From NCBI GenBank assembly GCA_016790695.1, contig JAEUOS010000027.1, positions 1 to 64,000 on the forward strand: a stretch of DNA of 64,000 nucleotides, in the 5' to 3' direction. The position numbers and the translations under genes are program-made. Of the stretch, positions 361 to 9,411 are shown one piece after another. Every line of letters begins with the position of its first letter. The first letter of the stretch is position 1. The notes beneath the pieces were generated by a model, which saw only the letters and a program-made list of their open reading frames with translations, was not told where the DNA came from and did no database searches. This stretch comes from Burkholderiales bacterium (lineage in GTDB: Bacteria; Pseudomonadota; Gammaproteobacteria; Burkholderiales; JAEUOS01).

Positions 361-2103
361 TCACGGCGTCTTGTCGTCGTGGCGAAGGGCGAACCGCACG
401 CAGCCGTCGCGGTTCTCTTCCAGCACGAGTGCCCAGCCCGCGGATTCCGCGAGCCTGGCCGCCTGGTACAGGCCGATGCCCAGGCCATTGCGCGAGGCGA
501 CCGGCCCGGCGAACAGGCGGCTCGCCGTCGCGCCATCGATCGCGCTGCCATCGTCCTCGACCACGAGCGAGGCGTGGGCACCACCACCGGAGACACGCAT
601 GCAGATCGCGAGCGCGGGTTCCGCACGCCGCTTCTGCAGCGCGTTCTGGATCAGGTTCTCCGCCACGCCCGAAAAGACTCCCGCCGGAATCGACGCGTCC
701 CCGGCCAGGGCCGCGGCGTCGAAGCCGATGCCGAGGTGTTCGTGCTGCGCCCGGAACTCGCTCCACCAGTGCAACAGCGGCGTCACCGCAGTCGAGTCGG
801 CCTGCGGCCGCTCGAGCTTGACCAGCGTTTGCGACAGGCGCCGCGACAACTCCGGCAGACTGCGTTCGACCAGCGCGCGCACCTCGCGATCGCCGGGCAG
901 CGCCGCAGCGGCACCGATCAGGCCATCGAGTGACTGCAGCAGATTCTTGACATCGTGGGTCAGGCGGGCGCCGGTCTCGTGCACCGCATGAAGGTAGTGG
1001 CGAGCGCGCAGGCGCTCCTCGCGCTTCTTGGCCGCGTAGAACTGCACGGCGACCTGCAGCAGGAGCTTGATGTGCCAGGCCAACGCGCCGGTGAGATGGC
1101 GCGGTGTGAACAGTCGGACGCTGATCACCGCTCGCGGCTCGTCCGGGATCGGCAGGTCGAATTCCTGGCAGTGGGCGCCGCTCCGCGTCCCGAACCCGCC
1201 CGGTGCGATCGCGCCTTCCCAGGAGGCGCCGGCGACCGGCGAGAACTCGCCGAGTGCATGGACCGCTTCCTCGAAGAAGCGCTCGGCGACGGCTTCCTCG
1301 CGGCTCAGGCGCGCGATCCTCTCGAGCCATCGCTCGTACGGCATGGCGAACGACATGAGGTAACGCGACAGCAGGAACACCGCGCCGCCGCGCTGATCCG
1401 GCAGCGCCATGCGGCCGAGCAGGACCTCGACGGCAACGAGTAGCACCGCGACGCCGACCAGGGTGATGCCGATGCTGGCGAAGTATCCTTGCTCGCCGAG
1501 CGTCATGAGCACGATGCCGGCAAAACCGATCAGCAGCAGCAGCAGAAGCATCCACACGCTGTGCACGAGGTCGTACAGGCCGCCGGCCCAGCTGCGCTCG
1601 CCCTCGCGTCCCGCCTCGCGCCAGGCCGCGAGCGCGAGCGGCGGCAGGGCGGCACTCAATATGATCTCGAGCCAGCCGCGCACCGCCGGCGACACCGCGC
1701 GCGCGCGCAACGTCTCGGGCAGCAGATCGGGCAGGACCAGGCCGAAGAACAAGGCCAGCAGATGGGCGAGTACGGCCAGATGCAGCAGGCGCTCGTCGCG
1801 GCGCGCGAAGGCCAGGCCGCGCCCACCGACCAGGGCAGTCACCAGCGCAACCCATGCGAACTGGATCCAGGGATTCAGGAACGCGGCAAGCAGCAGCGCA
1901 GCGCCGCCCAGCAGAAGCGCCTCGCGCGCGCCCAGGCGCAACGAGCCCGCGACCACCGGCTGCCACAGCAGGAACGCGCCGAGATGCGCGAAGAACAGCG
2001 GCTTGCGCCAGGATGCCGGCAGCGCCTGAAACTCGGAGGCGAGCAATAGCGCGATCGCCAGCACCAGCAAGAGGCTGCGCGAGCCGTCAGTGCGCCAGTT
2101 CAT
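361..2103 (-). CDS. Membrane-bound sensor histidine kinase (orphan)
   Basis: A 580-residue protein. About six or seven hydrophobic segments lie between residues 10 and 232, followed by a GAF-like input region (about 275-350) and a kinase core. The H-box is ARLTHDVKNLL with His383 as the likely phosphorylated residue. The N-box is ENLIQNAL (482-489), and the G-boxes are VEDDGSAI (515-522) and NGLGIGLY (539-546). It should phosphorylate a response regulator, but none is adjacent. The THDVKN H-box and multi-helix sensor recall kinases that drive sigma-54 activators for pili or PEP-CTERM proteins (PilS, PrsK), and both kinds of target lie within 3 kb; that link is inference. The ATG at 2103 is 9 nt after a TATTAT element. 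Confidence 0.88.
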   Translation of the reverse strand: MNWRTDGSRSLLLVLAIALLLASEFQALPASWRKPLFFAHLGAFLLWQPVVAGSLRLGAREALLLGGAALLLAAFLNPWIQFAWVALVTALVGGRGLAFARRDERLLHLAVLAHLLALFFGLVLPDLLPETLRARAVSPAVRGWLEIILSAALPPLALAAWREAGREGERSWAGGLYDLVHSVWMLLLLLLIGFAGIVLMTLGEQGYFASIGITLVGVAVLLVAVEVLLGRMALPDQRGGAVFLLSRYLMSFAMPYERWLERIARLSREEAVAERFFEEAVHALGEFSPVAGASWEGAIAPGGFGTRSGAHCQEFDLPIPDEPRAVISVRLFTPRHLTGALAWHIKLLLQVAVQFYAAKKREERLRARHYLHAVHETGARLTHDVKNLLQSLDGLIGAAAALPGDREVRALVERSLPELSRRLSQTLVKLERPQADSTAVTPLLHWWSEFRAQHEHLGIGFDAAALAGDASIPAGVFSGVAENLIQNALQKRRAEPALAICMRVSGGGAHASLVVEDDGSAIDGATASRLFAGPVASRNGLGIGLYQAARLAESAGWALVLEENRDGCVRFALRHDDKTP

Positions 2104-3930: not shown

Positions 3931-4662
3931 ATGCGCAAGCAAAAGGGCTTTACCCTGGTTGAAATCGCGATCGTTCTGGTAATCATCGGACTGCTGCTCG
4001 GCGGGATCCTGCGCGGGCAGGAGTTGATCCAGGGCGCACGCGTCCGCAACGTGATCGACCAGCAGAACGGGATTCGCGCCGCGTATTTCGCGTTTCAGGA
4101 TCGCTTCCGCCTGGTGCCCGGCGATATCGGCACCACCCAGACCGCCTTGGTCGGCAACGGCGTGCTCGCCTCGACCGATGGCGCAAGCGGCAACGGCCAG
4201 ATCGCCGTCAATGATTCCTCGACCGCGTTCCAGAACCTGACCGCGACGGGTTTCCTGTCGTGTTCGGTATGCACCGTCGCCCAGCAGGCATCAACGGCCA
4301 GCAACAGCCCGACCAACGTCTACGGCGGCGTGCTGCAGTTGGTGACCAACAACGTGCTGGCCAACTTCACCGCGCCCGCCACCTTCGGCCTCGCGCTTCC
4401 CGCGGTGCGCACTAACATCAAGACCGGCAACCTGATTCCGTCGAACGTGATGGCCGAGATCGACCTCAAGGCGGACGACGGCAACCCCTACAACGGCAAC
4501 TTCCGTTTCAGCACCTGGGCCGCTGCCGGCGGCACCGCGCCGACCCAGGCGACATGCGCCAACGGGCCGACGGCGACGGCAAGCCCGTGGAACAACGGCC
4601 AGGCCAGCGGCGCCGGCGGTCCCATCGGCGGCAACTGCGGTGGAGGAACCATCATCAACTAG
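3931..4662 (+). CDS. Type IV prepilin-like protein (type II secretion/pilin N-methylation domain)
   Basis: A 243-residue protein whose N-terminus MRKQKGFTLVEIAIVLVIIG is a textbook class III signal. Prepilin peptidase would cut between Gly6 and Phe7 and methylate Phe, and Glu5 of the mature protein is present. A hydrophobic helix follows to about residue 29. The globular part is rich in Asn, Thr, Gly and Ala, with a possible Cys pair (CSVC) near residues 111-114 and further Cys near 210 and 237. The start was chosen for the signal and for GTGGAGGC, an SD-like stretch just upstream; an upstream in-frame start at 3835 would bury the signal. It has its own sigma-54 promoter and terminator, so it is a single-gene unit. 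Confidence 0.9.
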   Translation: MRKQKGFTLVEIAIVLVIIGLLLGGILRGQELIQGARVRNVIDQQNGIRAAYFAFQDRFRLVPGDIGTTQTALVGNGVLASTDGASGNGQIAVNDSSTAFQNLTATGFLSCSVCTVAQQASTASNSPTNVYGGVLQLVTNNVLANFTAPATFGLALPAVRTNIKTGNLIPSNVMAEIDLKADDGNPYNGNFRFSTWAAAGGTAPTQATCANGPTATASPWNNGQASGAGGPIGGNCGGGTIIN

Positions 4663-4681
4663 CAGGGGCTTGGCCAACACG

Positions 4682-4712
4682 AAAAGGGGCGCCGCACAGC
4701 GCCCCTTTTTTT
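4682..4712 (+). terminator. Rho-independent terminator after the prepilin gene
   Basis: GGGGCGC (4686-4692) pairs with GCGCCCC (4699-4705) around a 6-nt loop, extended by AAAA/TTTT, and a run of seven T follows (4706-4712). It begins 19 nt after the stop codon. Confidence 0.9.
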
Positions 4713-4792
4713 CGCTTCCCGCGGCTGCCCGGCGCACCGATTTCACGGTATCGCGAGTGTCGGTTTTTTTTACACACCGGCGGAACGCCGAC

Positions 4793-4825
4793 GCAAACAA
4801 CAATGCAAGTGCATGAATTGTTTGC
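4793..4825. repeat. Long imperfect palindrome upstream of the PEP-CTERM gene
   Basis: GCAAACAA (4793-4800) and TTGTTTGC (4818-4825) are exact inverted repeats. Inside them ATGC and GCAT (4803-4806 and 4811-4814) pair again around AAGT. The stretch is A+T-rich compared with its surroundings. It ends 11 bp before a sigma-54-like element, so it is a good candidate for an activator or repressor site. What binds it cannot be told from sequence. Confidence 0.6.
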
Positions 4826-4836
4826 AAATGTCTGCC

Positions 4837-4852
4837 TTGCACGATTCCTGCT
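4837..4852 (+). promoter_or_regulatory. Degenerate sigma-54-like promoter before the PEP-CTERM gene
   Basis: TTGCACGATTCCTGCT fits TGGCACG-N4-TTGCW with two mismatches. One is at the -24 GG (TG here), which is normally nearly invariant; the -12 GC is intact and the spacing is exact. It lies 49 nt before the ATG at 4901 and just downstream of the palindrome. Sigma-54 control of PEP-CTERM genes is known in other bacteria, but the -24 mismatch keeps this tentative. Confidence 0.4.
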
Positions 4853-4900
4853 TGAGGAGTAGTCTTCAGTCTACTCTCCCTCCCGGTTCAAAGGACAGGA

Positions 4901-5584
4901 ATGAAAGCCCTTCTTGGTCGTTTGGCAGTCGTGTGCGGTTTTCTGGCTGCCGTCGGGCCGGCGCATGCCGTTGGTCCGTCGGTGCAGGACTACACGAGTC
5001 AGAGCGCCTGGCAAGCTGCGGTGACCGGCATGTTGTCGTTCGGATTCACCGGCGTCGTCGACCCGGAATCCGCCGACTCGCAATACCTCTCCCCGTCCCA
5101 CACGTTCGGGCCGATGACGTTCGCGTCGTCGAATTTCTTCGTGATCGACCCGGGTCCGTTTCCGCTTCCTTCCACCAGCTTCAGTGTCCAGTTCCTGTCT
5201 GTCGAGGGAGATGGCAGCACGGACAACGTCCTCACGGCGAGCTTCACCGAAGTCGCGTCGACCGCCGTGGCGTTTCGCTACGGCTCGTCCAATCCGCTGG
5301 ACAACGTCACGCCCTACCCGTTGTCGTTGACGGTGAACACGACGGCGGGGTCGGCGACCTTCGGCAGCGTGCTTCTGCCGACCGCTTCGGGGATTACCAA
5401 CTTCATCGGCTTCACGTCCTCGGCAGCGATCACCAGCGTGGTCTTCAGCCAGGCCCCGACCTCCGGAACCTCGTTCGTCCTGACCTCGTTCCAGGTGGCA
5501 GCCGTTCCCGAGCCTTCAGTGGCGCTCCTGCTCGGCGCCGGGCTCGGTCTGATCCTCACGGCGGCACGCCGGCGGATTGCCTGA
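4901..5584 (+). CDS. PEP-CTERM sorting-domain surface protein
   Basis: A 227-residue exported protein. Residues 1-23 form a Sec signal peptide ending in AHA. The C-terminus is a complete PEP-CTERM anchor: VPEPS at 202-206, a hydrophobic helix, then AARRRIA. Such proteins are cut and anchored or released by exosortase (EpsH type) and linked to exopolysaccharide or biofilm matrix. No exosortase or polysaccharide locus is in the window, so sorting genes must lie elsewhere. The central part is Ser/Thr/Gly/Phe-rich, probably beta-structured, with no enzyme motif. The start is supported by AAAGGACAGG just upstream. The gene stands alone, with its own palindrome, promoter-like site and terminator. 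Confidence 0.9.
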   Translation: MKALLGRLAVVCGFLAAVGPAHAVGPSVQDYTSQSAWQAAVTGMLSFGFTGVVDPESADSQYLSPSHTFGPMTFASSNFFVIDPGPFPLPSTSFSVQFLSVEGDGSTDNVLTASFTEVASTAVAFRYGSSNPLDNVTPYPLSLTVNTTAGSATFGSVLLPTASGITNFIGFTSSAAITSVVFSQAPTSGTSFVLTSFQVAAVPEPSVALLLGAGLGLILTAARRRIA

Positions 5585-5605
5585 CAGACCGGCTGCCCCC
5601 TGGCG

Positions 5606-5632
5606 AAAAGCCCCGCATTGCGGGGCTTTTTT
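5606..5632. terminator. Bidirectional rho-independent terminator
   Basis: AAAAGCCCCGC (5606-5616) pairs perfectly with GCGGGGCTTTT (5620-5630) around a 3-nt loop, followed by more T on the plus strand and an AAAA/TTTT edge on the minus strand. It lies between the convergent PEP-CTERM gene (plus) and the KefC-like gene (minus) and can serve both. Confidence 0.9.
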
Positions 5633-5718
5633 CATCGTCGCCGGGGACCAGGGGGACCGGGCACCGGCCAATCGGCATGGCCCCACGGTGATCGCATCGC
5701 GGGACAATCCAACGCCGC

Positions 5719-7692
5719 TCACACGCCGCGCAGCAGGCGCTCCTCGGCCAGGGCGATCGGTTCCGGCGTCCCCTTGAGAACCAGCACGTCGCCGGCCGCG
5801 AGCACGAGATCGGGGACAACCTGCGGGTTGGCCTGGCCCGGCCGGCGCACGTTGACGACCTCGAGCCCACTCTGGTCGAGCCCGGCCGCGTCCAGCGTCT
5901 TGCCGATCGCCGCGGCGCCAGCCTCGAGGATCACCGAGTGCAGTCGCACGTGGTGGCGCTCGCTCAGGTCCTCCGGCTCATCCGACGAGCCGTGGAAAAA
6001 GCCGCGCAGCAGGCCATAGCGGGAATCGCGCACCGCACCGACGCGGCGCACCACCTTCGATATCGGCACGCCGGTCAGCAGCAGGGCGTGCGAGGCCAGC
6101 ATCAGGCTCGACTCCAGCGCTTCGGGGACCACTTCGGCAGCGCCTGCCTCGTGCAATCGGTCCATTTCGCTGTCGTCGCGGACCCGCACGATCACCGGCA
6201 GGCCCGGGCGGGCCTCGTTGACGTGACCGAGAATGCGCACGGCGGCGGCAGTGTCGGCATAGGTCACGACGACCGCCTGCGCACGCGCCAGGCCGGCCGC
6301 CATCAGCGCCTCGCGCCGGCTGGCATCGGCGTAGACCACCGCATCACCGGCCGCGGCGGCTTCGCGGATGCGCTCGGGGTCGAGGTCCAGCGCCATGTAC
6401 TCGACACCCTCGGCAGCGAGGATCTTGGCCAGGCTCTGACCGTTGCGACCGTATCCGCAGATGATGACGTGGCGCGATGTCTTGATGGTGCGGGAAGCGA
6501 TCTGGGTGAGCTGCAGCGACTTCATCATCCATTCGTCGCGCGAGAACCGAAGCGCCAGGCGGTCACTGGCAGCGATCAGGAACGGCGCTGCCAGCATCGA
6601 CAGGAGCATCGCCGCCAGTATCGCGTCCATCAGCACGCTGTCGACCAGCTTCAGTCCGCCGGCCTGCGCCAGCAGCACGAATCCGAATTCCCCGGCTTGC
6701 GCCAGCGCCAGGCCCGTGCGGATCGCGGTACCTGACGGCCGACCGAAGAGCCGGCTCAGACCGGCGACGACGGCGAACTTGGCGATCACCGGAACGGTGG
6801 CGAGCAGCAGCACCAGCCACGGCTGCGCCAGCACCGAGCGAATGTCCAGCAGCATGCCGATGGTGACGAAGAACAGTCCGAGCAGGACATCGCGGAACGG
6901 CTTGATGTCCTCCTCGACCTGATGGCGATACTCGGTCTCCGAGATCAGCATGCCGGCGACGAACGCGCCGAGCGCAAGCGACAGACCTGCATGCTCGGTG
7001 ACATAGGCCAGCCCGAGAGTCATCAGCAGAAGATTGAGCACGAACAGTTCGTTCGAGCGCCGCATCGCGACCACGGTCAGCCAGGCGCGCACCAGCTTGC
7101 GGCCGGCGAACAGCAGCACCGCCAGCACGGCGGCCGCCTTGAGCACCGCCACGCCCAGCGCCAGGGGAATGTTCTCCGGTCCGCTCGCCAGCGCCGGGAC
7201 GATCACCAGGAACGGGACGACCGCGAGATCCTGGAACAGCAGCACACCGACGACATCGCGCCCGTGCCGGCTGTCCAGTTCCCCGCGCTCCGCAAGCAAC
7301 TTCACGAGGATCGCGGTCGACGACATCGCCAGCGCGCCCCCGAGCGCGACTCCGGCCTGCCAGCCGATGCCCACGAACAAGGCTCCCGCCACACCCATCA
7401 CCGTGGTAAGCAGGACCTGCGCGGAACCGAATCCGAAAACCGACGAGCGCATGGCCATCAGCCGCGGCAGGTTGAACTCCAGACCAATGGAGAACATCAG
7501 GAAAACCACGCCGAACTCGGCGAGATAGCGGGTTTCCGGCGTGTTCGGCACAAAACCCAGCGCATTCGGGCCGATCGCGATCCCGGCAATCAGATACCCG
7601 AGCAGGGGCGGCAGCCGCAGCTTGCGGGCCAGCGCGACAATGCCGACCGAGGATGCCAGGAAGACCAGAACGATTTCCAGGGTCTTAGGCAC
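5719..7692 (-). CDS. KefC-like monovalent cation:proton antiporter (CPA2) with RCK domains
   Basis: A 657-residue protein from the GTG at 7692. The first about 380 residues are the CPA2 antiporter domain with about 12-13 helices; LPPLLGYLIAGIAIGP and DIKPFRDVLLGLFFVTIGM are diagnostic. After a linker comes a TrkA-N (RCK-N) domain opening with HVIICGYGRNG, a nucleotide-binding GxGxxG, then an RCK-C domain at the end. It exchanges K+ (or Na+) for H+ across the inner membrane, gated by the RCK domains. The GTG was preferred because family members begin a few residues before helix 1; an in-frame start at 7776 would add 28 non-family residues. It is divergent from kdsD, as in many betaproteobacteria. 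Confidence 0.92.
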   Translation of the reverse strand: MPKTLEIVLVFLASSVGIVALARKLRLPPLLGYLIAGIAIGPNALGFVPNTPETRYLAEFGVVFLMFSIGLEFNLPRLMAMRSSVFGFGSAQVLLTTVMGVAGALFVGIGWQAGVALGGALAMSSTAILVKLLAERGELDSRHGRDVVGVLLFQDLAVVPFLVIVPALASGPENIPLALGVAVLKAAAVLAVLLFAGRKLVRAWLTVVAMRRSNELFVLNLLLMTLGLAYVTEHAGLSLALGAFVAGMLISETEYRHQVEEDIKPFRDVLLGLFFVTIGMLLDIRSVLAQPWLVLLLATVPVIAKFAVVAGLSRLFGRPSGTAIRTGLALAQAGEFGFVLLAQAGGLKLVDSVLMDAILAAMLLSMLAAPFLIAASDRLALRFSRDEWMMKSLQLTQIASRTIKTSRHVIICGYGRNGQSLAKILAAEGVEYMALDLDPERIREAAAAGDAVVYADASRREALMAAGLARAQAVVVTYADTAAAVRILGHVNEARPGLPVIVRVRDDSEMDRLHEAGAAEVVPEALESSLMLASHALLLTGVPISKVVRRVGAVRDSRYGLLRGFFHGSSDEPEDLSERHHVRLHSVILEAGAAAIGKTLDAAGLDQSGLEVVNVRRPGQANPQVVPDLVLAAGDVLVLKGTPEPIALAEERLLRGV

Positions 7693-7825
7693 GCCGCCCC
7701 CGACCGCGCGCGCCAGGACGGGCGATGCGCGCAAACAGCGCCCGATCACCGATTGGTGCGACGCAGCATTTGACAATCGTCTGCAAACTTGATGCCAATT
7801 TTCGATCCCGAATAGGGGGGTTTGC

Positions 7826-7831
7826 TATACT
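7826..7831 (+). promoter_or_regulatory. -10 element of the kdsD promoter, 7 nt before the start codon
   Basis: TATACT (5/6 to TATAAT) sits at 7826-7831, while the kdsD ATG starts at 7839. Normal initiation 6-8 nt after the -10 would begin the mRNA at or next to the start codon. No SD sequence is present. A -35 is poor: TTCGAT at 7801-7806 with a 19-nt spacer is the best candidate. Confidence 0.5.
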
Positions 7832-7838
7832 CGACCGC

Positions 7839-8852
7839 ATGATAGCCGCAGCTTCCCGCAACAGCCAATCGCGCTCCGCGCCCCTGACCGGGACGCAGAC
7901 CCTCGACATGGCACGCGAGGTGCTCCGCATTGAGGCCGAAGCCGTCGCCACCCTGAGCGAGCGTCTGGATTCGACCTTCGCCGCCGCCATCGACCTGCTG
8001 CTCGCTTGTGGCGGTCGGGTGGTGGTCACCGGAATCGGCAAGTCCGGCCACATCGCCCGAAAAGTCGCGGCGACCTTCGCATCCACCGGCACGCCGGCAT
8101 TCTTCGTCCACCCGGCCGAGGCCAGCCACGGCGACCTCGGCATGATCGCCGCCGACGACGTCCTGGTGGCGTTTTCGAATTCGGGCGAGACAGCCGAGGT
8201 GCTGGCGATCCTGCCTGCGGTCAAGCGACTCGGCACCCGCCTGATCGCCGTAACCGGCAACACCGCTTCCTCGCTCGGCCGCCTGGCCGATGCCTGCCTC
8301 GACACCAGCGTCGCCAAGGAAGCGTGCCCGATGAACCTCGCACCGACCGCCAGCACCACCTCGCAACTGGCGATGGGAGATGCCCTGGCCGTGGCGTTGC
8401 TGCACGCCAAGGGGATCGGGCCGCAGGATTTCGCCCGTTCCCACCCCGGCGGCTCCCTCGGCCGCAAGTTGCTGGTGCGGGTGCGCGACATCATGCGCAC
8501 CGGCGCCGCGGTCCCGGTGGTTCCGGTCGAGGCGACGCTGGCCGACGCCGTGCTCGAGATCAGCCGCAAGCAGATGGGCATGACCGCGGTCGTCGATGCG
8601 ACGTCGCGCGTTGTCGGCGTGTTCACCGACGGTGACCTGCGCCGTACCCTGGAGCGCGTCGCCGACATCCGCGGGGCGCGCATCGCCGACCACATGACCC
8701 GGAATCCGCGCAGTATCGCGCCGGAGGCGCTGGCCACTCAGGCGGTGCATGAGATGGAGTCCGCGCGCATCAGCCAGCTGCTGGTGGTCGAGCACGGCGT
8801 GCTCGCGGGCGCGCTCAACATGCACGACCTGTTCCGCGCCCGCGTGGTCTAG
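7839..8852 (+). CDS. kdsD: Arabinose-5-phosphate isomerase (Kdo pathway)
   Basis: A 337-residue protein that interconverts ribulose 5-phosphate and arabinose 5-phosphate, the first step of Kdo synthesis for LPS. An SIS domain (about 45-190) contains VVVTGIGKSGHIARK, FFVHPAEASHGDLGM, VAFSNSGETAEV and AKEACP, all matching E. coli KdsD. Two CBS domains follow, beginning DIMRTGAAVP and HMTRNP. Length is normal (E. coli 328). It heads an operon with kdsC and lptC-lptA-lptB. The ATG at 7839 has no SD sequence and may be read from a leaderless transcript; the next internal ATG would cut into the conserved N-terminus. Confidence 0.97.
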   Translation: MIAAASRNSQSRSAPLTGTQTLDMAREVLRIEAEAVATLSERLDSTFAAAIDLLLACGGRVVVTGIGKSGHIARKVAATFASTGTPAFFVHPAEASHGDLGMIAADDVLVAFSNSGETAEVLAILPAVKRLGTRLIAVTGNTASSLGRLADACLDTSVAKEACPMNLAPTASTTSQLAMGDALAVALLHAKGIGPQDFARSHPGGSLGRKLLVRVRDIMRTGAAVPVVPVEATLADAVLEISRKQMGMTAVVDATSRVVGVFTDGDLRRTLERVADIRGARIADHMTRNPRSIAPEALATQAVHEMESARISQLLVVEHGVLAGALNMHDLFRARVV

Positions 8853-8862
8853 GAACATCGCG

Positions 8863-9411
8863 ATGGCCGACACCGTCCCGCACCTGCCACGCGAGGTCGA
8901 ATCGCGCCTCGCCGGCCTGCGGCTCATGGCATTCGACGTCGATGGCGTGCTCACCGACGGTCGCCTCTGGTACGCCGAGGACGGTTCGGAGATCAAGGCC
9001 TTCGACGCGCGCGACGGGCACGGGCTCAAAATGCTGCGCGAGGCCGGCCTGCAGCTGGCCCTGATCACCAGCCGCAAGTCGGCAATCGTCGAGCGACGCG
9101 CCCGCGAGCTCGGCATCCATCATTGCCTGCAGGGCATCGAAGACAAGCTATCGGGACTGCGCGGCATCCTCCGTTCCACCAACTGCCGGGAGGACGAGGC
9201 CGGCTTCATGGGCGATGACCTGCTCGACCTCCCCGTGCTCGCGCGCGTCGGATTCGCGGCCACGGTCCCGGATGCCCCCGAGGCCGTGCGCGCGCGTGCG
9301 CACCTGGTCACGCGGCGCGCCGGCGGCCGCGGCGCGGTGCGGGAACTCTGCGAGATCATCCTCGCCGCCAAAGGCGAGCTCGCGCCAATGATCGCGAGGT
9401 ACCTCGCATGA
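8863..9411 (+). CDS. kdsC: 3-deoxy-D-manno-octulosonate 8-phosphate phosphatase
   Basis: A 182-residue HAD-family phosphatase that dephosphorylates Kdo-8-P to Kdo. Motif I is FDVDGVLTDG, with nucleophile Asp25 and acid/base Asp27. KAFDARDGHGLKML and ALITSRKSAIVERRA are typical of the C0-type, capless KdsC group, and GFMGDDLLDLPVL carries the Mg-binding aspartates. The gene starts 10 nt after kdsD with AGGAAC as SD and overlaps lptC by 4 nt (ATGA), so the two are translationally coupled. Confidence 0.97.
   Translation: MADTVPHLPREVESRLAGLRLMAFDVDGVLTDGRLWYAEDGSEIKAFDARDGHGLKMLREAGLQLALITSRKSAIVERRARELGIHHCLQGIEDKLSGLRGILRSTNCREDEAGFMGDDLLDLPVLARVGFAATVPDAPEAVRARAHLVTRRAGGRGAVRELCEIILAAKGELAPMIARYLA

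Follow-up and report, generated by a model that had tools for sequence, protein, structure and literature searches.

The question raised by this locus is which element upstream of a PEP-CTERM protein gene connects that gene to a regulon. The stretch of Burkholderiales DNA that we analysed (64,000 nucleotides, hereafter the window) carries the gene at 4901..5584 on the + strand, encoding 227 aa with a signal-peptide-like N-terminus and a C-terminal AVPEPSVALLLGAGLGLILTAARRRIA; the product matched TIGR02595 (22 bits, cut-off 16) and PF07589 (21.1 bits, cut-off 20.7), and scored 25.3 bits in the PF07589 search of its own genome. A probable ribosome-binding region, AAAGGACAGG, was read by eye at 4890..4899 (+). 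An intrinsic-terminator-like hairpin with a T run at 4682..4712 (+) follows a prepilin-like gene ending at 4662 and parts that gene from the promoter, and another lies after the PEP-CTERM gene at 5606..5632 (+). Both hairpins were recognised by eye and neither was listed by a mechanical terminator scan, in the case of 4682-4712 perhaps since the stem includes part of the T run; together, they suggest that the PEP-CTERM gene is a single-gene unit.

The initial annotation of the window had drawn attention to a palindrome followed by a sigma-54 element, and proposed that the palindrome could be a PrsR-type site lying unusually close to the promoter, or else a repressor site; for the latter the analysis gave neither support nor disproof. 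Both the palindrome and the element are present. The TTGCACG-N4-CTGCT element does begin 11 nt beyond the palindrome, and we assign the sigma-54 -24/-12 element TTGCACGATTCCTGCT to 4837..4852 (+), where it agrees with 10/12 consensus positions and stands in the same place relative to the upstream motif described below as at other sites. Its -24 dinucleotide is TG instead of GG while the GC at -12 is present, and it is the only site without GG at -24 among the 73 sites compared in this study. RpoN is encoded in the same genome (11388-12830). Scoring here and below relied on generic consensus strings for sigma-54 and for IHF.

What had been overlooked is a 17-nt sequence at 4758..4774 (+), TGTCGGTTTTTTTTACA, a predicted PrsR-type enhancer site (motif 1) which ends in TTTACA and lies 18 bp upstream of the palindrome. 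With motif 1 standing 62 nt before the sigma-54 element, the predicted activator site precedes the palindrome and has a typical spacing. Searching with the TGTAAA/TTTACA hexamers alone proved too loose, and the 17-nt motif with a spacing constraint was used in their place. The founding description of PEP-CTERM (Haft et al., 2006; PMC1569441) reports, in the sections drawn on here, a 17-nt motif 1 ending in TTTACA, a spacer that averages 62.8 nt (SD 10.6, range 32-92), and then motif 2, likewise of 17 nt, bearing GG at -24 and GC at -12, a layout that precedes 99/167 proteobacterial PEP-CTERM genes and whose distribution matches that of PrsR, PrsK, and PrsT. The window reproduces this layout with its 17-nt TTTACA-ending motif, 62-nt spacer, sigma-54 element, distance of 48 nt from there to the start codon (published mean 71), PEP-CTERM gene as a single-gene unit, and a profile shared with PrsR, and differs from those sections in its degenerate -24 and in the PrsR not found in its own assembly. 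Motif 1, a spacer within 32-92 nt, and a PEP-CTERM gene downstream are thus all found here, and the assignment of the gene to a sigma-54-type promoter of the PrsK/PrsR class was right. The supposedly normal distance of 80-150 bp differs from what PMC1569441 reports, and a motif-1 gap of 62 nt leaves nothing unusual in the closeness to the promoter. The element at 4758-4774 is more telling than the palindrome.

The palindrome itself (4793-4825, no strand assigned) consists of the outer arms GCAAACAA (4793-4800) and TTGTTTGC (4818-4825), an exact inverted repeat with a loop of 17 nt, and an inner pair, ATGCA (4803-4807) and TGCAT (4810-4814). The inner pair, which the initial annotation had reported as part of the palindrome, is off-centre: because its centre is shifted by half a base from that of the outer arms, the whole is not one strict dyad. 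The 64-kb window holds 91 maximal inverted repeats (arms of at least 8, loops of 3-20), 7 of which have an inner pair of at least 5. When the intergenic region and the spacer were each put through 3000 dinucleotide shuffles, arms of at least 8 arose by chance in 6.8% and 3.2%, respectively, and such arms plus a nested pair in 0.17% and 0.1%, the nested-pair criterion having been picked after the repeat had been seen. The palindrome is therefore unusual locally and ordinary at the scale of the whole window. A genome-wide count had been proposed beforehand, with a single copy to be taken as speaking against a regulon; the 5.49-Mb assembly holds one copy, both exactly and at up to two mismatches, so on that reckoning the palindrome defines no regulon, and it is motif 1 that recurs instead. 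Arms of at least 8 occur in 6/73 compared spacers, every such repeat being different. No orthologous promoter for footprinting the palindrome was found among 60 relatives, where the gene itself was the sole match, nor in a C-terminal signal search of 84,980 species genomes, which returned one weak match of 33 residues. A 12-mer, ATTGTTTGCAAA (window 4816-4828), which contains the 8-bp palindrome TTTGCAAA, is common to the spacers of two PEP-CTERM promoters of this genome (the window and C111/L013) at differing offsets, and occurs in 0/71 others.

Two motif-1 patterns searched without spacing constraint in the own genome found 8 places each, 12 in total, and both reversed controls found 0. PEP-CTERM genes follow 8/12 of these places (C13, C26, C27, C39, C68, C83, C111, and C224), such that the module precedes 8 of the 43 PF07589 matches in the genome, leaving 35/43 without it; one of the 43 (C1:48958) looks false, lying inside another protein. 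The best sigma-54 match is 51, 61-63, or 95 nt away in 10/12 places, and in 10/12 the interval from motif 1 to the sigma-54 element contains an IHF box scoring 7/9 or better. Among individual places, the sigma-54 match of C223 at 61 nt is tied with two others, C83 lacks an in-register IHF box, the C112 place runs off its contig, and C124, which is not a module, offers no IHF box and only a weak sigma-54 match, 93 nt away in GC-rich surroundings. C26 and C174 have a spacing of 95 nt, about three turns above 62, with the IHF box at offset 52. At L179 (G000:C174:36394) and L180 (G000:C223:21248), motif-1/IHF-box/sigma-54-like sites stand before genes whose ends are not PEP-CTERM, and the gene downstream at C174 has a Tat-like RRRELLKG stretch. 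As the module is found before such genes, the regulon may be wider.

We then performed a comparative analysis of 60 related genomes using a paired pattern (motif 1, a gap of 50-75 nt as the range of spacings covered, and the sigma-54 element), which was found in 19/60 genomes, the reversed-pattern control giving 0 in 60/60. With the best 23 candidates per genome scored, PrsR was above cut-off in 18/60 genomes, 16 genomes had both the pair and PrsR, 3 the pair only (G000, G002, and G008), 2 PrsR only (G032 and G042), and 39 neither, a co-occurrence with a Fisher p of 9e-10 (8e-10 in the 57 genomes with a completeness of 90% or more and a contamination of 5% or less). In G008 and G057 (L167-L168 and L176-L177), two motif-1/sigma-54 modules are arranged in tandem, some 210-310 nt from each other, and each of the two belongs to the short class of 50-52 nt.

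In the own assembly (G000), a profile search found no PrsR, PrsK, or XrtA-type exosortase at cut-off. All 50 PrsR candidates of this assembly were scored (the best 23 in each of the other genomes), and the best match among the 50 scored 324.5 bits, short of the cut-off of 502.6. As PrsR and PrsK stay under cut-off here, it is the DNA layout that supports class membership. The assembly has a completeness of 90.9% and PrsR is encoded in G001, of the same genus, so an assembly gap is plausible but unproven. Several candidates were considered and set aside. Of the best PrsR-like matches, the one at C103 lies beside a transmembrane kinase, and we take the two to be an apparent PilS/PilR pair; the one at C5 has surroundings that we take to be secretin and transport genes, and neither was accepted as PrsR. 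Within the window, 361-2103 (-) encodes a membrane histidine kinase with an HDVKNL motif that is distantly PrsK-like; at 41.9 bits against a cut-off of 300, and with no adjoining response regulator before the contig end, it was rejected as PrsK proper. The exosortase family PF09721 was found in 23/60 genomes, with one weak, fragment-like match of 36.7 bits in G000. At L181 (G000:C54), the order across 4337-8909 is an extracellular nuclease of the ExeM/NucH type whose C-terminus carries a PLPAWALAALALALAAGLGRR tail, a small exosortase-family protein, and a PEP-CTERM gene. This exosortase-family protein scored 64 bits as XrtM-like, below the cut-off of 125, and 44 bits for TIGR04178, over the cut-off of 23; no other exosortase match was found in this assembly, for all its 43 PEP-CTERM matches.

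The spacers were compared across 73 sites recovered by a strict pattern, 66 from relatives and 7 from the own genome; the own sites C26, C174, C223, and C224 failed this pattern and are outside the 73. The genes that follow comprise 39 PEP-CTERM genes, 11 with VPxP-like C-termini (by a loose pattern that we set ourselves), 17 others, and 6 that are truncated. The spacer is trimodal in these 73 sites, with 13 at 50-55 nt, 48 at 61-65, and 12 at 70-74, and none at 56-60 or 66-69. The classes differ by about one helical turn, and the vector strength near 11.25 nt was 0.825, where 2000 uniform draws reached at most 0.414.

Within these spacers, a box resembling the IHF consensus occupies a fixed place. 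In the window, it is CAAGTGCATGAAT at 4806..4818 (+; YAANNNNTTGATW in reverse orientation), scoring 7/9, situated 31 nt beyond motif 1, with 18 nt left to the sigma-54 element, in the middle of the palindrome, which overlies it. A score of 7/9 is reached by about 7% of shuffled spacers and is weak when taken alone; over the 73 sites as a class, the signal is strong. Across the 48 spacers of the 61-65 class, YAANNNNTTGATW at 8/9 or better anywhere in the spacer, a test independent of register, was found in 16 (2.9 expected, maximum 7 in 200 shuffles), and 11 of these 16 boxes are at an offset of exactly 31. In register (a range of 16-22 nt, fixed after the spacers had been seen), a box of at least 7/9 was found in 42/73 sites, with 5.4 expected and a maximum of 14 in 500 shuffles. 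These box tests used mononucleotide shuffles of each spacer and handle the relatedness of sites only in the per-genome view, in which 19/19 genomes are above their own shuffle mean, with p below 0.05 in 12/19 and not in 7/19. The box is 17-19 nt from the sigma-54 element in all three spacer classes (30 nt in the exceptions C26 and C174); the box thus moves with the sigma-54 element, so that the helical steps fall mostly between the activator site and the box. In the open-licence literature, we found no report of an IHF box or of helical phasing in the PEP-CTERM promoter class, and neither the fixed IHF-like box nor the helical spacer steps figure in the description of the layout in the sections of PMC1569441 drawn on here; within that literature, the trimodal gap and the IHF-consensus box at a fixed place are apparently new for the class.

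The identity of this box is the part of the module for which another explanation deserves most weight. The module would be real on that account, and its mid-spacer box would be a second activator contact or an intrinsically bent AT-rich element in place of an IHF site. The sequence becomes AT-rich at offset 31 (0.63-0.73 from there on, 0.50-0.55 ahead of it), some permuted consensuses score nearly as high as the real one (5.40 against 5.44), and PMC4740811, in the part drawn on, notes a class of sigma-54 enhancers with a conserved AT-rich sequence and no IHF site. The exact IHF consensus nevertheless outscores all 2000 permuted ones, and information is high at the IHF-defining positions and low at the four N positions of the consensus, so that we hold a non-IHF box to be possible but doubtful. 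A decaying or inactive module, with PrsR truly absent and the sigma-54 element degenerate, would be in keeping with PrsR and PrsK falling short of cut-off in the assembly and with TG in place of GG at -24; against this, the 12 motif-1 places persist with regular spacing, PrsR occurs in the same-genus G001, RpoN is present, and the assembly is incomplete, and decay appears unlikely.

The palindrome allows two further readings. As a gene-specific operator, it would bind a second regulator, whose repression would come from keeping IHF off the DNA or from making the activator-promoter loop more rigid. The rarity of the nested repeat in local shuffles, the mid-loop position 11 nt from the promoter, the 12-mer that recurs in the C111 PEP-CTERM spacer, and the repression of synthetic sigma-54 enhancers by mid-loop-bound proteins described in PMC4740811 would be consistent with such an operator, whereas its single copy in the genome even at two mismatches, the differing repeats in just 6/73 spacers, the outer and inner pairs without a common centre, and the lack of an orthologous promoter for comparison in 60 relatives and 84,980 species genomes argue against it, and we consider it quite unlikely. 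We give little credence, too, to the more specific proposal of an operator over the IHF site, at which a second regulator would compete with bending and give this gene its own off-switch within a shared regulon. That the palindrome is itself a PrsR-type activator site, unusually near the promoter, is highly improbable: a dyad does precede a sigma-54 element here, but the palindrome does not recur as motif 1 does, and its end, 11 nt before the -24, would leave scant room for a looped hexamer.

The reading that we regard as very probable from these comparisons is a PrsR-like activator, an IHF-bent loop, and a sigma-54 promoter driving the PEP-CTERM gene, with the dyad of the palindrome probably incidental rather than a regulatory site that the promoters have in common. 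An activator of the NtrC type, either PrsR or something closely equivalent, would bind 4758-4774, the intervening DNA would be bent, most likely by IHF at 4806-4818, and the bend would bring the activator, on the correct helical face, into contact with sigma-54 RNA polymerase at 4837-4852, such that transcription of the single-gene unit would start near 4863. Motif 1, its spacing, the sigma-54 element, their recurrence before PEP-CTERM genes and in relatives, and the fixed IHF-consensus box across sites are demonstrable at the level of DNA; from these we infer PrsR binding, IHF binding, the start site, and the signal.

The PEP-CTERM gene pepA of Aquincola tertiaricarbonis is RpoN-dependent with mapped TGGCAC/CTGCTT elements (PMC9850573, as far as drawn on here), and shares with the window the -12 CTGCTT and an upstream predicted enhancer, the -24 being TGGCAC, mapped, in pepA and TTGCAC, read from sequence, in the window. 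IHF between an enhancer and a sigma-54 promoter is established for other activators, such as CbrB and NifA, in the account drawn from PMC6296734, and those promoters have the same order of activator site, IHF site, and sigma-54 promoter; the NifA site TGT-N10-ACA resembles the TGT-N11-ACA of motif 1. IHF dependence of the CbrB and NifA promoters was shown by mutants, whereas the role of IHF in the window is a predicted one. The Vibrio qrr sigma-54 enhancers, which belong to another regulon, tolerate spacing changes of 10-11 bp according to the parts of PMC4740811 used here; the shifts are of about the same size, the phasing there having been deduced from indels in 61 genes and in the present case from 73 sites that fall into three spacing classes.

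In essence, the window promoter is one more PEP-CTERM regulon site of the published layout, and the class appears to follow a rule in which an activator site, an IHF-type box at a set place, and a sigma-54 element are combined, with the activator site shifted in steps of about one helical turn. If this is true, it would provide a sharper pattern for finding the PEP-CTERM regulon, and PEP-CTERM surface proteins, and hence floc or biofilm traits too, would be IHF-dependent.
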